DNA of 64,000 nucleotides. Source: Cyanobacteriota bacterium SRBZ.bins.94.201705. Its GTDB lineage: Bacteria > Cyanobacteriota > Cyanobacteriia > Cyanobacteriales > Cyanobacteriaceae. The notes under the pieces are model-generated. The model searched no databases. It saw only the letters and a program-made list of their open reading frames with translations, and had not been told where the DNA came from. Of this stretch, positions 46,899 through 53,488 are shown piece after piece. A program made the translations under genes and the position numbers. Position 1 is the stretch's first letter, and every line of letters starts with the position of its first letter. The stretch is taken from assembly GCA_030549855.1 (NCBI GenBank), contig JAUQQP010000005.1, forward strand, positions 1-64,000. Reading direction: 5' to 3'.

Positions 46899-49499
46899 CT
46901 AGTTATGATGTTTGAGGATTAGTCTTTCGTCTTCCACGTCTACGTAAATAGTGTCACCCTCTTTGAATTCACCGCGGAGGATGGCTTTGGCGATGGCAGT
47001 TTCTAGATAACGTTGAATGGCACGTTTCAAGGGTCTGGCACCATATACCGGATCGTAGCCCACGTCGGCCAAAAAGTCAATGGCATTTTCAGACAGCTTC
47101 AAGGAGAGTTTTTGTTCAGCTAGACGGGATTGGAGACGATTTACCTGCAGTTGAACGATTTGACGCAATTGCTCCTTGTTGAGACCATGGAAAATGATAA
47201 TCTCGTCAATACGGTTGAGAAACTCTGGGCGGAAATTTGCCCGCATCGCCTCCATCACCCGGTTGCGCATCTGTTCGTATTTGCTCTCATCCCCTGCTAG
47301 GTCTAGAATATACTGAGACCCTATGTTACTGGTCATTATCACAATAGTATTAGTGAAGTCTACCGTGTGACCTTGGGAGTCGGTGAGGCGACCATCGTCC
47401 AGCAGTTGTAACATGATGTTGAAGACGTCCGGGTGGGCCTTTTCAATCTCATCGAAGAGGATAACAGAATAAGGACGACGACGAATAGCCTCTGTTAACT
47501 GTCCCCCCTCCTCGTAACCTACATACCCCGGTGGTGCGCCTATTAGACGAGATACGCTGTGTTTCTCCATGTATTCAGACATATCGATGCGCACCATGGC
47601 CTCCTCGGTGTCAAAGAGGATTTCTGCTAGGGCTTTGGCCAGTTCGGTTTTCCCCACACCAGTGGGCCCCAAAAAGATGAAACTAGCAGTAGGACGGTTA
47701 GGATCAGATAAACCGGCACGAGAGCGTTGAATAGCCTCCGCTACCGCCCTTACGGCATCGTCTTGGCCTATTACCCGTTTGTGGAGTTGCTCTTCTAGGT
47801 GTAACAGTTTTTCCTTTTCTGATTGTACCAGTTTGCTGACGGGAATACCAGTCCATTTGGAGATAATTTCGGCAATATCCGCTTCTGTCACCTCCTCCCG
47901 TAAGAGGGACTTGCCACTGGTCTGTTTCTCTGCTAAAATGGCCTGGGCGTCCTTCAATTGTCTTTGCAAGTCGGTGAGTCGGCCATAACGCAATTCCGCC
48001 GCCTTGTTGTAGTCGTAGTCTCTTTCTGCCTGTTGGATGGCCACGTTGACTCTTTCAATCTCTTCCCGAATGCTGCGAATTCTGTCAATAATCTCCCTTT
48101 CCGCCTGCCATTGAGCATTTAAGGCCGATTGTTGCCGTTTTAATTCCTCAATCTCTTTCTCTATCTTCTCCAGTCTTTCTAAAGAGGCGGGATCATTTTC
48201 TTTCTTCAGAGACAGTCTTTCCATCTCCAATTGCATGATTTTCCTGTCTACCTCGTCTAGGGCTTCCGGCTTGGAAGTGATTTCCATTTTCAGTTTCGCC
48301 GCCGCCTCGTCTATCAAGTCAATGGCCTTATCCGGCAGGAAACGCTCACTGATGTAACGATTAGATAATACAGCCGCAGCGACGAGGGCACTGTCGGAAA
48401 TCCTGACACCATGGTGGACTTCATAACGTTCCCGCAATCCCCGTAAAATGGAAATAGTATCCTCTACATTGGGTTCATCCACATACACCGGTTGGAAACG
48501 TCTTTCTAAGGCGGCGTCTTTTTCGATGTATTTGCGATACTCATCCAGGGTAGTAGCACCAATGCAACGCAACTCGCCACGGGCTAACATGGGTTTTAGT
48601 AGGTTGCCCGCATCCATGGCGCCTTGCGTAGCCCCAGCCCCTACAACCGTGTGAATCTCATCAATAAAGAGAATGATATTACCCCGGGATTCGGTTACTT
48701 CTTTTAAGACGGCTTTTAGTCTCTCCTCAAATTCCCCTCGATACTTGGCACCAGCTATCAACGCCCCCATATCCAGGGCAATTAGGGTACGATCTAATAG
48801 AGACTCTGGCACATCCCGGTTGACTATTCTTTGGGCTAAGCCTTCTACTATTGCCGTTTTACCTACCCCTGGTTCACCTATTAGTACAGGGTTGTTTTTT
48901 GTCCTTCTTGAAAGGATCTGTATAGTACGCCGTATCTCATCGTCTCTCCCAATAACAGGGTCCAGTTTACCAGCACGGGCCAAAGCTGTCAAGTCCCGCC
49001 CGTATTTTTCTAGAGACTGGTATTTGGCTTCTGGATTTTGATCTACCACTTTTTGACTCCCCCTTATTTCTTTAATTACTTTTCTTAGTTTATATTCATC
49101 CAAATCGAATTCTCTGAAAATATGTTTACCAAGGCGGTCATCTTGGCTGTAGGCTAGCATTATGTGTTCGATGGAGATGTATTCATCCCCAAATTCTTGA
49201 CGATACTTCTCGGCAAAATCTAATAACAAATCTAGACTTCTGCCTAGGTAAATCGAGTCGCCTACATTTTTAATTTTCGGCTGTCTTCGGATAAAATCGT
49301 CTACTCTGTCTCGAAAACGGGATACGTTTACATTAGCTTTGTTAAGAATATCTACCGCTAGTCCCTCCTGTTCAAGAAGGGATTTTAACAGGTGTTCAGT
49401 CTCTATTTGTTGATGTTGATTCTCTTTGGCAATGTCGGGAGTTTTTACTATTGCCTCCCAAGCTTTTTCCGTGAATTTTTGTGGGTTGGTAGGCTGCAT
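46899..49499 (-). CDS. clpB: ATP-dependent chaperone ClpB
   Basis: This 866-residue Hsp100 disaggregase works with DnaK to recover aggregated proteins. Order: N-domain (1-150, [16 protein letters not shown] start), AAA1 (Walker A GEPGVGKT near 208), the ClpB-specific middle coiled coil (about 405-530), AAA2 (Walker A GPTGVGKT near 609) and the C-terminal D2-small domain. The start is ATG. No CIRCE element (TTAGCACTC-N9-GAGTGCTAA) is present upstream. A TATAAT on the minus strand (49563-49558) may be its -10. Confidence 0.96.
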
Positions 49500-49698: not shown

Positions 49699-51165
49699 CT
49701 AGCTGAAGTCGATTTTACCGGCTTCTATAATTTTCCACTCCTCATCACTTATTCTCTCCAGCTTAGCCGGTTTTAGTACCCTTATATCTTCCCCCAGGAT
49801 AACATCCGGAATGGGATTCGCTGTTTGGAATAATCCAGTGTATACTGCCGCTTCCAGTATTCCCCTGGAAAAGATTTTGAGACGATTAGGAAAAACATAA
49901 TAATTTCTAATGCCTACTGTTATACAAAAATCCCCCGTTATATTTGATTTGAAAAAGGCCTTCTTGTCGCCACTATCCCCACTTTTTGTTACTATGTCAA
50001 CCAACAGATAAGAAACTCTAGACAGCATTCGATAATCCTGGTTATACAAATCCAATAATTCTTTTTCCTCTTGACTGTAGGAGAGGACTTTTCCCTCGGT
50101 TTTAATTTGATTCTTTTTCTTGACAAATTGAGAAGTTATCTCCTTGAAACTCTCGTCAATCGCCCACTCCCTTTCTCTCCCATCGTCTTCTACTTTCTCT
50201 TTACTAACACCGGAAAAATGCTCAATATTAGACACCTTTGAAATACAGTATTTTATCATTTTTTCCAACAACAATTGCCTGGCATCTATTTCCTCCTTGG
50301 TCTTTTTAAACTCCTCTATAATGGCTCCTATTTTCGTTTTTATTTCTTCCAATTCATCGTGGTATTCTCTGTCATGGCGGTAGGGAATCAACTCACAATC
50401 TTCTCGTTTTGGCGGTGGGGTTAAAAAACTTGTATCTCCCTGCCATTTGCTAACTTTGGCTTCGTAATCTCTGATTTTATCTTCCAGTAATTCCTGCTTC
50501 TTAATCCATTCTTTTTGAAAGGATAATAACTTTTTATCTAGGAGGACTATTTTGTTGTTGGTTTCCCTTTCAACCTCTTCCTTAAAAGACTTCAAATCCT
50601 CTTGCCAATGATTGGTGTTTTGCCTGTTATCGGAGGGAATTTTTGTGGCAGAAGTGGGAAGGCTAGTAGTAAGAATGCCCTTGTTTTGTAGAAGCCACTG
50701 GTTACCGCTGGGGAGAATTTTCAAAACTGCCGGCTTATCTAGGTACAAATTTCCACCTTCTGTTGTTTTGAATCCTGGTGGTAAATCAAAGAGGAGATTG
50801 ATACTGTGTTTGTTATCCACCCTAATCCTTCTGAGGGGATTTAAGACGAGAAGATATTGTTTTTCTATAGGGTTGTCCAGTAGCAAAATCCAGTAGTTAC
50901 CAGAGGGGGAAATTTCTACAACTATTTGATTGGGGTTTTTGCCTCTGTAACTATCTGCGGTGAGAGAAACTGGGGTAGCATATTCCTCAAAAATCCTTGG
51001 TACATCGTTATATATGTCTACCAATTCCTCTAGGGGGATTTTAAGGGGTTTTGGGGGAGATAAACCGGCAGGAGGGGAAATGGTTTTTTGGGATTCTAGC
51101 TGTCTCAGTCGCGACTCCAATTGCTGGAGGTAAGTCCAAATTTGTGACAAGTCAGCCTCCTTCAT
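49699..51165 (-). CDS. Uncharacterised protein with two copies of one domain around a coiled coil
   Basis: This 488-residue cytoplasmic-looking protein has a short N-terminal coiled coil (LQQLESRLRQLESQK). Then come domain copy A (about 46-165: LVDIYNDVPRIFEEYATPV, SGNYWILLL, LLVLNPLRRIRV, LYLDKPAVLKILPSGNQWLL), a charged coiled-coil middle (195-350), and copy B (about 365-488: LLDLYNQDYRMLSRVSYLLV, TGDFCITVG, YYVFPNRLKIF, VLKPAKLERISDEEWKII). The two copies share the order xLYNxx, hydrophobic strand, Y(L/V)xPxxL(R/K)I, KPA, W. No catalytic motif is visible. The vWA lipoprotein gene lies nine bases upstream on the same strand, so the two are probably made together. Confidence 0.65.
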   Translation of the reverse strand: MKEADLSQIWTYLQQLESRLRQLESQKTISPPAGLSPPKPLKIPLEELVDIYNDVPRIFEEYATPVSLTADSYRGKNPNQIVVEISPSGNYWILLLDNPIEKQYLLVLNPLRRIRVDNKHSINLLFDLPPGFKTTEGGNLYLDKPAVLKILPSGNQWLLQNKGILTTSLPTSATKIPSDNRQNTNHWQEDLKSFKEEVERETNNKIVLLDKKLLSFQKEWIKKQELLEDKIRDYEAKVSKWQGDTSFLTPPPKREDCELIPYRHDREYHDELEEIKTKIGAIIEEFKKTKEEIDARQLLLEKMIKYCISKVSNIEHFSGVSKEKVEDDGREREWAIDESFKEITSQFVKKKNQIKTEGKVLSYSQEEKELLDLYNQDYRMLSRVSYLLVDIVTKSGDSGDKKAFFKSNITGDFCITVGIRNYYVFPNRLKIFSRGILEAAVYTGLFQTANPIPDVILGEDIRVLKPAKLERISDEEWKIIEAGKIDFS

Positions 51166-51174
51166 ACATACCCC

Positions 51175-52725
51175 CTATTTATTCTTCTGAATACCTATAC
51201 AAAAGCGCCCTATTACTACATCATTACTTCCGTTTTTCAGGGTTTCCAGACTGAGGGTTTTTAGTCTTTTCATAAATATGGACAAGTTCAGAGTTTTAGA
51301 GCCATCTGTACCACTATTGTCGCTCCAATTATACCACCAATCTAGGTCCTTGAGGTCATTAAGAATTAAGTCTGTCTCAAAGAGGTAGATTTGGGGTTGT
51401 GGGAGTTTCCTTATGTCGAGAGTAGCTACAAATTGCAAGTTTTGTTTATTGTCGTCTAGTTTCAAGTCACTAATGGTTAATGCCTGTTGGAGGGAGACAT
51501 TAGGGGTTTCGCGGAAATATTTTTTACCGGAGGTAGATACACTACCAGAAACTGTCTGGTTACCGGTGTCACTATTGGTTTCACTGGCTACACCGGGGGT
51601 GGGATTGAAGATATAAACCCTGGTTTTTGTCTTTAGATTTTCTTCGATAATTAGAAGAGTATTGTTGCTGTTTTGAGGAGTTGCTAGTTGGGGGAAAGGT
51701 GTGGAATACTTGATAGTAACTGTGGGCTTGTCATTGCTAATAATGTTAAGGAAATCATAGGCACTAGTTTTTTCATTTTCCGGGGAAACTACTACCTTGG
51801 CGTCAGATAAAGCAAAAACTCTTTCTATTTGCCCGTCTGTCGGTAATTGTGAGTTGTTTTGGATGTCAGCAAAACTCCCCAAATTTACTGGAGATTTGAG
51901 AATATTTTTACCGGGGAATATAAACATCTCACTGTATTGTTGTAAGTCGGGGGCGAGTCGTTTATACTCTTCAAAATAACGGGAAATCCTGTCAAATTTT
52001 CCTATAACAATGAGATAGAATGGACGATAGGTATCAGGATTGTTTTCATCACTGGCATATTTAAACTTAGCCTTACCGGTGAAGGGGTTGAAGACAATAC
52101 CATTAAATTGACTCTTAACACCAATAATGCCTATGGTATAATCCTGTCTACCTTGGGTGAAATAGTTTTTGTTAAGGGCTTCAATTAACTTACCTGGATC
52201 ATCCCCTTCTAAGTCAGTGACAATGATAGTGAGTTTTTCTCTTCCCTCGGCGGGGGGAATAATGGCTGATTGTATAGGACTAGTGATAGGCTGGTAGGTG
52301 GGGTCTTTGCTGTCGTAGAATATAGGGAGTTTAGAATCCTGACGGAATCTGGTGCGGGTTAGGGGTTGTGTTTCTCCGAGACGGTAGTATTCTATCCGAG
52401 TGTTGTTATCCTCAGTGATGCTAGTGGCGAGTATTTCCATCATTTTCACATAATTGCTGTTGGGTTTGGCGACGAATCCCAACATGGAGTCACTACCGTC
52501 TACGTAAATGGAAACATCTAGGGGTTGACTGAGGTTAGCTGTATCATTGGTGGTGGTAGCGGGGGTGAAGGGCATTGGACAGATAACCCTCTCTTCCATT
52601 TTGCCACAGCCAGGGAGGAGGGATAGACAGAGAAGAAGGGCAAGGAGGGGAAAACGAGGCTTATTTTTTCCCAGAAGGTTTACAATTGGGGGATAGGATG
52701 GAGATTTCCAGAGGCAAGGTGACAT
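51175..52725 (-). CDS. von Willebrand factor A-domain lipoprotein
   Basis: This 516-residue exported protein has an N-terminal hydrophobic segment and lipobox LLPGC (36-40), predicting lipidation at Cys40. The vWA fold follows with a complete MIDAS: DGSDS (76-80), a Thr in ITSPIQSAI and Asp in VTDLEGDD. The C-terminal 300 residues look like beta-sandwich modules (IYVDGSDSM start; later KPTVTIKYSTPFP and PQIYLFETDL). It would bind a partner through a metal ion at the membrane surface. It is nine bases upstream of the duplicated-domain gene and divergent from the radical-SAM gene. Not a family I can name. Confidence 0.75.
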   Translation of the reverse strand: MSPCLWKSPSYPPIVNLLGKNKPRFPLLALLLCLSLLPGCGKMEERVICPMPFTPATTTNDTANLSQPLDVSIYVDGSDSMLGFVAKPNSNYVKMMEILATSITEDNNTRIEYYRLGETQPLTRTRFRQDSKLPIFYDSKDPTYQPITSPIQSAIIPPAEGREKLTIIVTDLEGDDPGKLIEALNKNYFTQGRQDYTIGIIGVKSQFNGIVFNPFTGKAKFKYASDENNPDTYRPFYLIVIGKFDRISRYFEEYKRLAPDLQQYSEMFIFPGKNILKSPVNLGSFADIQNNSQLPTDGQIERVFALSDAKVVVSPENEKTSAYDFLNIISNDKPTVTIKYSTPFPQLATPQNSNNTLLIIEENLKTKTRVYIFNPTPGVASETNSDTGNQTVSGSVSTSGKKYFRETPNVSLQQALTISDLKLDDNKQNLQFVATLDIRKLPQPQIYLFETDLILNDLKDLDWWYNWSDNSGTDGSKTLNLSIFMKRLKTLSLETLKNGSNDVVIGRFCIGIQKNK

Positions 52726-52879: not shown

Positions 52880-53488
52880 ATGAAAGAGAAACCCGTATTG
52901 GATTTTATACCTCCAGACCATGTTAATATTATGGGTTATGTGGACGAGTCGGAGGTAAACGGGCCAGGACGTCGTGCGGTAGTATGGGTACAGGGGTGTA
53001 ATCGAGGATGTCCAGGTTGTTTTAATCCCCAGTCTTGGCCGTTTGAGCCTAATCAAATTGTTTCCATTTACGAGTTAGCGGCACAGATTTTAAGTAATCC
53101 TCGTAATGAAGGTGTTACATTTTCAGGGGGTGAACCTTTTTGGCAGGCGGAGGCGTTAGCAAAGTTAGCCAGGATATTGAAAGAGAAGGGGTTAAGTGTA
53201 ATGTCTTTTACAGGTTTTACCCTAGAACAACTACAATCGCCCCAGGCGCCACCCCACTCCCAGGATTTGTTATCTCAGTTGGACATACTCATTGATGGGC
53301 CTTACATTCAGTCTTTAGCCATCAACTCTCCTGATTCTTTGGTTTCTTCCAGTAACCAGAGGGTTCATGTATTCAACCCCGAGTTTAAGGATAAACTGAA
53401 TTGGGCCTCAGATCAAGTGGAAATTCATATTCTTAAGGATGGGACTAGGATTGTGACTGGTTTTTTGGGCTCATTGAATTTAATTTAG
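52880..53488 (+). CDS. Radical SAM protein of the single-cluster activase type (NrdG-like)
   Basis: This 202-residue protein binds one [4Fe-4S] cluster through CNRGCPGC (Cys40, Cys44, Cys47; CxxxCxxC) and has the glycine motif TFSGGEPFWQ for SAM binding. The fold and length match the anaerobic ribonucleotide reductase activase family, but no nrdD gene is adjacent and many stand-alone members have other unknown targets. The ATG follows GAGGGGAG. It is divergent from the vWA lipoprotein gene and its stop overlaps the stop of the GT-B gene by four bases. Confidence 0.85.
   Translation: MKEKPVLDFIPPDHVNIMGYVDESEVNGPGRRAVVWVQGCNRGCPGCFNPQSWPFEPNQIVSIYELAAQILSNPRNEGVTFSGGEPFWQAEALAKLARILKEKGLSVMSFTGFTLEQLQSPQAPPHSQDLLSQLDILIDGPYIQSLAINSPDSLVSSSNQRVHVFNPEFKDKLNWASDQVEIHILKDGTRIVTGFLGSLNLI

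Follow-up and report, generated by a model that had tools for sequence, protein, structure and literature searches.

Two adjacent genes in the window (the whole 64,000-nucleotide stretch of DNA that was analysed) encode a vWA-type lipoprotein and a partner protein that carries the same domain near each of its ends. Gene neighbourhoods and co-occurrence show that the pair belongs to a module of five gene families, namely the vWA lipoprotein, the four-transmembrane protein TM4 (~160 aa), the tubulin-like GTPase TUB (~500 aa), the actin-superfamily ATPase ASK (~1,090 aa) and the PD proteins, where "PD" is a name coined in this analysis for the duplicated domain of ~120 aa. The module is widespread in bacteria but almost undescribed. 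We consider it reasonably probable that the pair contributes two parts to a five-family trans-envelope complex, a lipoprotein outside the cytoplasm and a soluble adaptor, and that in this complex PD proteins would couple the lipoprotein to a scaffold of TUB and ASK.

The gene pair and its vWA-type lipoprotein

The pair comprises two open reading frames on the minus strand, separated by a gap of 9 bp. The upstream gene (51175-52725) encodes the lipoprotein of 516 aa and the downstream gene (49699-51165) encodes the partner of 488 aa, an arrangement that a sequence-only reading of the window had already given and that an open-reading-frame check recovers. Values of dN/dS against a congener (0.13 for the lipoprotein, 0.18 for the partner) indicate purifying selection on both genes. 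Pfam and NCBIfam give neither gene a family, which confirms the earlier statement that the pair has no assigned function.

The description of the lipoprotein draws on its reading frame, an alignment of 38 family members, an AlphaFold model and its co-occurrence with TUB. A predicted lipobox with the sequence LLPGC ends at Cys40 (52606-52608, minus strand). The cysteine is kept in 36 of 38 homologues and a lipobox-like motif in 35, and so the lipobox of the sequence-only reading holds. That reading had also described a complete DGSDS...T...D metal site, and this claim survives in part. The DxSxS motif of the putative MIDAS (D76-G-S-D-S80; 52486-52500, minus strand) is near-invariant, with D76 in 37, S or T at position 78 in 38, and S80 in 36 of the 38 homologues. 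A second loop of the site, T170-D171 (52213-52218, minus strand), is located at the end of a predicted strand (residues 163-170), and profile comparison lines it up with the TD motif of genuine VWA_2 domains. The threonine is found in 36/38 homologues, and D171, the acidic loop-3 residue that together with DxSxS marks a vWA domain, is found in 38/38. However, the alignment contains no conserved threonine column between F136 and T170. Because the loop-2 Thr is not conserved, the predicted MIDAS is not fully canonical.

The AlphaFold model of the lipoprotein (pLDDT 87, pTM 0.83) has strands alternating with helices and places the DxSxS motif behind the first strand. A comparison of the lipoprotein family with genuine VWA_2 domains by using hhalign yields a modest match (E 0.0033), where unrelated profiles give 0.26 and 0.63; the Pfam search does not recognise the window lipoprotein. 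The motif, the predicted topology and this modest match suggest that the protein carries a divergent vWA domain (aa ~60-275). The C-terminal half (aa 278-516; 51178-51894, minus strand) is beta-rich and might form an Ig-like sandwich, as judged by weak structural similarity (Foldseek E 3e-3 or worse). Alignments of this half with Ig sandwiches by using VIA-align reach Z scores of up to 5.1 over ~106 residues, a weak similarity that concerns the arrangement only. Among the matches listed when the whole lipoprotein was searched by fold (Foldseek, VIA-align), all are immunoglobulin sandwiches on aa 278-516 and none falls on the vWA part. The lipoprotein profile has no match among PDB sequences, and the window lipoprotein used as query against genome contigs finds no relative.

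The partner protein and its two PD domains

The partner (dN/dS as above) consists of a PD domain, a coiled-coil-like region and a second PD domain. The N-terminal copy spans aa 46-166 (50668-51030, minus strand) and the C-terminal copy aa 367-487 (49705-50067, minus strand). The sequence-only reading had proposed that one domain occurs at both ends of this product. An independent PD profile, built from 111 domain copies of other cyanobacteria and including no sequence of the window's family, finds both copies (E 9.3e-21 and 2.2e-10, respectively), as does the genome search (2.7e-26 and 2.1e-17). When the C-terminal part of the partner is shuffled, 0 of 2,000 shuffles match the profile. The two copies have just 22 of 111 residues in common, and for this reason plain BLAST misses the duplication, with no full-length match between them by blastp. 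The order of helices and strands is nonetheless similar in both copies of the partner model, which is moderately confident (pLDDT 72, pTM 0.36).

Between the PD copies, AlphaFold predicts a long helical, coiled-coil-like stretch at about aa 181-318 (50212-50625, minus strand), composed of helices 181-248 and 264-318 at moderate confidence. Hydropathy predicts no transmembrane segment in the partner, in keeping with the earlier proposal of a soluble protein with a duplicated domain. A structure search of the PDB with the partner model gives no meaningful match, and PD is without a recognised fold in that search; the PD profile likewise finds nothing meaningful among PDB sequences.

A module of five gene families

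Relatives of the lipoprotein are found in 19 of 60 related genomes, and most adjoin TM4, TUB and ASK genes followed by genes for PD proteins. TUB is present in 18 of the 60, all of which carry the lipoprotein (Fisher 2e-14), and the sole lipoprotein carrier that lacks TUB (1/19) is a 67%-complete assembly. PD domains occur in 20 of the 60 genomes, 17 of them shared with TUB (Fisher 5e-11). Thus PD tracks TUB, which rules out, for these 60 genomes, that PD is a domain spread indiscriminately among cyanobacterial proteins.

A scan of GTDB genomes provided 79 named TUB loci, and family counts were taken over L105-L168. These 64 loci include TM4 in 58, ASK in 62, the lipoprotein in 48 and PD in 47 cases, and all five families are present in 37. 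The loci are distributed among cyanobacteria, Poribacteria, Nitrospirae, KSB1, Acidobacteria, Aminicenantes and Ignavibacteria, and diverged forms of the module are found in Clostridia and Bacteroidota. The lipoprotein and TM4 genes point away from each other in 31 loci and in the same direction in 15.

The window's pair is a detached part of this module. The lipoprotein and its two-PD partner are on the window's contig (C38), TM4-TUB-ASK-PD-PD are on a second contig (C1), and a PD protein that ends in a transmembrane tail is on a third (C13). The pair and TUB are on separate contigs in congener G001 as well, whereas G004, G007, G008 and G012 have the pair and other module genes together. In the window, a ClpB-like chaperone gene (46899-49499) and a radical-SAM activase-like gene (Fer4_12; 52880-53488) flank the pair. 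Genes of the same clusters flank it in G001 (locus L075), and the site of the split is therefore stable.

The sequence-only reading took the pair for an independent two-part system, in which the lipoprotein is an adhesin or cargo site and the partner acts in the cytoplasm. The two genes are indeed conserved together, and are adjacent, in every lipoprotein-bearing genome of the window's family (G001, G002, G004, G007, G008, G012), although it is mainly within this family that a two-PD partner is immediately next to the lipoprotein. However, the lipoprotein tracks TUB almost perfectly and usually adjoins TM4-TUB-ASK, so that the two proteins are members of a bigger module, to which TM4, TUB, ASK and PD paralogues also belong. 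Moreover, linking a lipoprotein to a cytoplasmic protein takes something that crosses the membrane, a part that TM4 and bitopic PD proteins could play. A self-sufficient pair is therefore very improbable.

The two large proteins of the module carry, as judged from conserved motifs, the nucleotide-binding signatures of the tubulin and actin superfamilies. All 23 aligned TUB members match Pfam Tubulin_2 at E 0.01 or better, and 10 of the 23 match Tubulin. The TUB of the window's genome passes the curated Tubulin_2 cut-off (28.6 vs 27 bits), and several other TUBs score below it. Invariant columns of TUB correspond to the glycine loops and aspartates of the tubulin superfamily (GG-G, D-D and FGGTGA loops); the TUB profile has no match among PDB sequences. 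ASK contains the phosphate-1 motif DFGTS and the phosphate-2 motif DIGGGTSD, by which it is classed with the actin superfamily. Its matches to actin, MreB and FtsA are weak, with FtsA or MreB below cut-off in up to 8 of 19 members and a PDB actin at E 1.7e-4. TM4 mostly has four hydrophobic segments. A contractile injection system was suggested by gene sizes resembling those of tube and sheath genes, and was excluded because the ~160-aa product is a membrane protein and that of ~500 aa matches Tubulin_2.

PD proteins have several layouts: zinc ribbon-coiled coil-PD; signal peptide-ectodomain-TM-coiled coil-PD; multi-PD; PD-WD40; and PD-FGE-sulfatase fusions. The PD proteins that close module loci include fusions with WD40 propellers and one fusion with an FGE-sulfatase domain (L064:8911-11031, L106:19176-20954, L117:20040-21512, L122:18494-20506, L113:19693-21486). 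The target of the module may be set by this variable end of the locus. Some loci have a second, PD-fused copy of ASK beside the standard one (L070:7949-10879, L064:2642-5686, L117:16928-19912), which is suggestive of ASK-ASK pairs. The module also occurs on plasmids, of Gloeothece PCC 7822 (L083, NC_014503.1, typed by MOB as mobilizable) and of Picosynechococcus (L084, NZ_CP014003.1), and plasmid carriage suggests a route for its patchy spread.

Function and relation to known systems

Within the proposed trans-envelope complex, TUB and ASK would form an NTP-driven scaffold beneath the plasma membrane, to which PD proteins could bind as adaptors. Bitopic PD proteins and TM4 would span the membrane and couple this scaffold to the lipoprotein, whose vWA domain might bind an envelope ligand outside through its metal site. 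The window's partner, with a PD domain at each end, could cross-link two cytoplasmic sites. A broader and more tentative proposal is that the module amounts to a cytoskeletal machine spanning the envelope that has so far gone unnoticed, kept in lineages that range from cyanobacteria to several uncultured phyla, in which tubulin-like and actin-like NTPases are run together and are tied to a surface vWA lipoprotein by PD, a new duplicable adaptor, and by bitopic coiled-coil proteins. Genes that are split or listed singly as "hypothetical" in many cyanobacteria prove to be members of one module, in which tubulin- and actin-superfamily proteins come together in a context other than cell division.

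The combination of a constant core and variable associates might instead indicate a conflict or self-recognition system, in which an NTPase/vWA core serves variable PD-tagged effectors and PD is an effector-associated recruitment domain. The module is patchily distributed (about 18/60 relatives), has copies on plasmids, and varies from locus to locus in the number of PD paralogues, some of which are fused to WD40 or FGE-sulfatase domains. In these respects it resembles the NTP-dependent systems of Kaur et al. 2020, which have a constant NTPase core, vWA proteins and variable associates that include WD40- or FGE-type modules; tubulin, HSP70 and vWA genes are also found in such GTPase-centric conflict systems (PMC7159879). 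However, a TRAFAC double-GTPase and GAP1 are the defining parts of those systems (PMC7159879) and are not seen in the module core, and ASK has actin-like motifs and is not a full HSP70. No P-loop GTPase matches the module core proteins that were scanned, Pfam finds no nuclease, protease or TRAFAC GTPase domain in the core proteins, and models of anti-phage defence match by generic coiled-coil similarity only. Homologues in Synechocystis, moreover, have a phenotype in motility and photosynthesis. On this evidence a role in conflict is unlikely.

Experimental data are available for the Synechocystis counterpart. In Synechocystis salina the locus has the order lipoprotein-TM4-TUB-ASK, then a gene for a 357-aa protein (signal, TM, coiled coil), then PD, and its TUB and ASK match Tubulin_2 and FtsA. 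This is the order and these are the domains of Sll0445 and Sll0446 in strain PCC 6803, where Sll0445 has a Tubulin_2, Sll0446 an FtsA and Sll0447 a DivIC domain (PMC9880817). By analogy with the S. salina gene order, sll0443 presumably encodes the lipoprotein. Interruption of sll0445, sll0446 or sll0447 in each case impairs phototaxis and alters photosystem II fluorescence, and the three proteins co-fractionate with pilus assembly proteins and photosystems (PMC9880817). These phenotypes concern TUB, ASK and the next gene, and not the lipoprotein or the two-PD partner. The genes sll0443-sll0449 are one predicted transcription unit with a CRP site (PMC2633013), whereas the module in the window's genome is split over contigs. 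Upstream of the module, no candidate CRP site scores better than shuffles, and the site is not conserved. The lipoprotein and the PD domain go unnamed in both PMC9880817 and PMC2633013, and neither paper remarks on how widely the genes are conserved. The module provides a structural frame for the unexplained phototaxis and photosystem phenotypes of the sll0445-sll0447 mutants, with the lipoprotein, TM4 and PD proteins as candidate partners.

These data raise the possibility that the module is a dedicated type IV pilus accessory, which would place pili or control them during phototaxis and whose lipoprotein would contact the pilus machinery. The phototaxis defect and the co-fractionation with pilus assembly proteins are consistent with such a role. 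Levels of sll0443-0445 and sll0448 are also raised in a lexA mutant (PMC4759255). Sll0445 and Sll0446 are deregulated alongside other motility proteins in a comFB mutant. Among the relatives, all 60 genomes have PilT-like genes, with or without the module, so that presence or absence of PilT is uninformative there, and the module is missing from most of these PilT-bearing genomes. The module also reaches beyond genomes with PilT: in two of its carriers, Sphaerospermopsis kisseleviana NIES-73 and one Poribacteria chromosome, nothing matches PilT above the cut-off. Because most PilT-bearing relatives lack the module and these two carriers have it, a pilus-specific role does not fit, and we judge it quite improbable. 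For the trans-envelope complex, occurrence in genomes without PilT implies that the phototactic motility that the homologues would support in Synechocystis is probably just one output of a general envelope-organising function.

The sequence-only reading had nominated the pair as part of an undescribed system. This remains correct in that Pfam and NCBIfam offer no function, but a phototaxis phenotype is published for the counterparts of TUB, ASK and the next gene (PMC9880817), and the prediction of a related tubulin-family/vWA system dates from 2010. That system, a predicted membrane-remodelling system centred on FtsZl1, is described in the main text of Makarova and Koonin 2010 as patchy over bacteria, and there, as here, a tubulin-superfamily protein is encoded with a vWA protein and membrane proteins (PMC2875224). 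According to the same text, most FtsZl1-linked vWA proteins retain the MIDAS (PMC2875224). The module shares a Tubulin_2-type GTPase and a linked vWA protein with DxSxS and D conserved (48/64 TUB loci). However, the architecture given for FtsZl1, an FtsZ-like domain followed by an extended coiled coil and a helical C-terminal domain, is not that of the ~500-aa TUB. The main text of PMC2875224 also mentions no actin-superfamily ATPase or PD domain, and its supplementary gene lists may include ASK or PD unnamed.

Long Tubulin_2 proteins of ~1,100 aa are encoded by separate genes in 32 of the 60 relatives and score 295-382 bits, against 20-35 bits for TUB. From their length and Pfam match, we infer that these are the FtsZl1 family. 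Because TUB is shorter, scores about ten times lower and occurs with a long protein in only a minority of its carriers, it appears to represent a branch apart from FtsZl1. A long protein is present in 5 of 18 TUB carriers and in 27 of 42 other genomes (p 0.012); the long FtsZl1-type tubulins and the short TUB module thus tend not to share a genome, as though one could stand in for the other.
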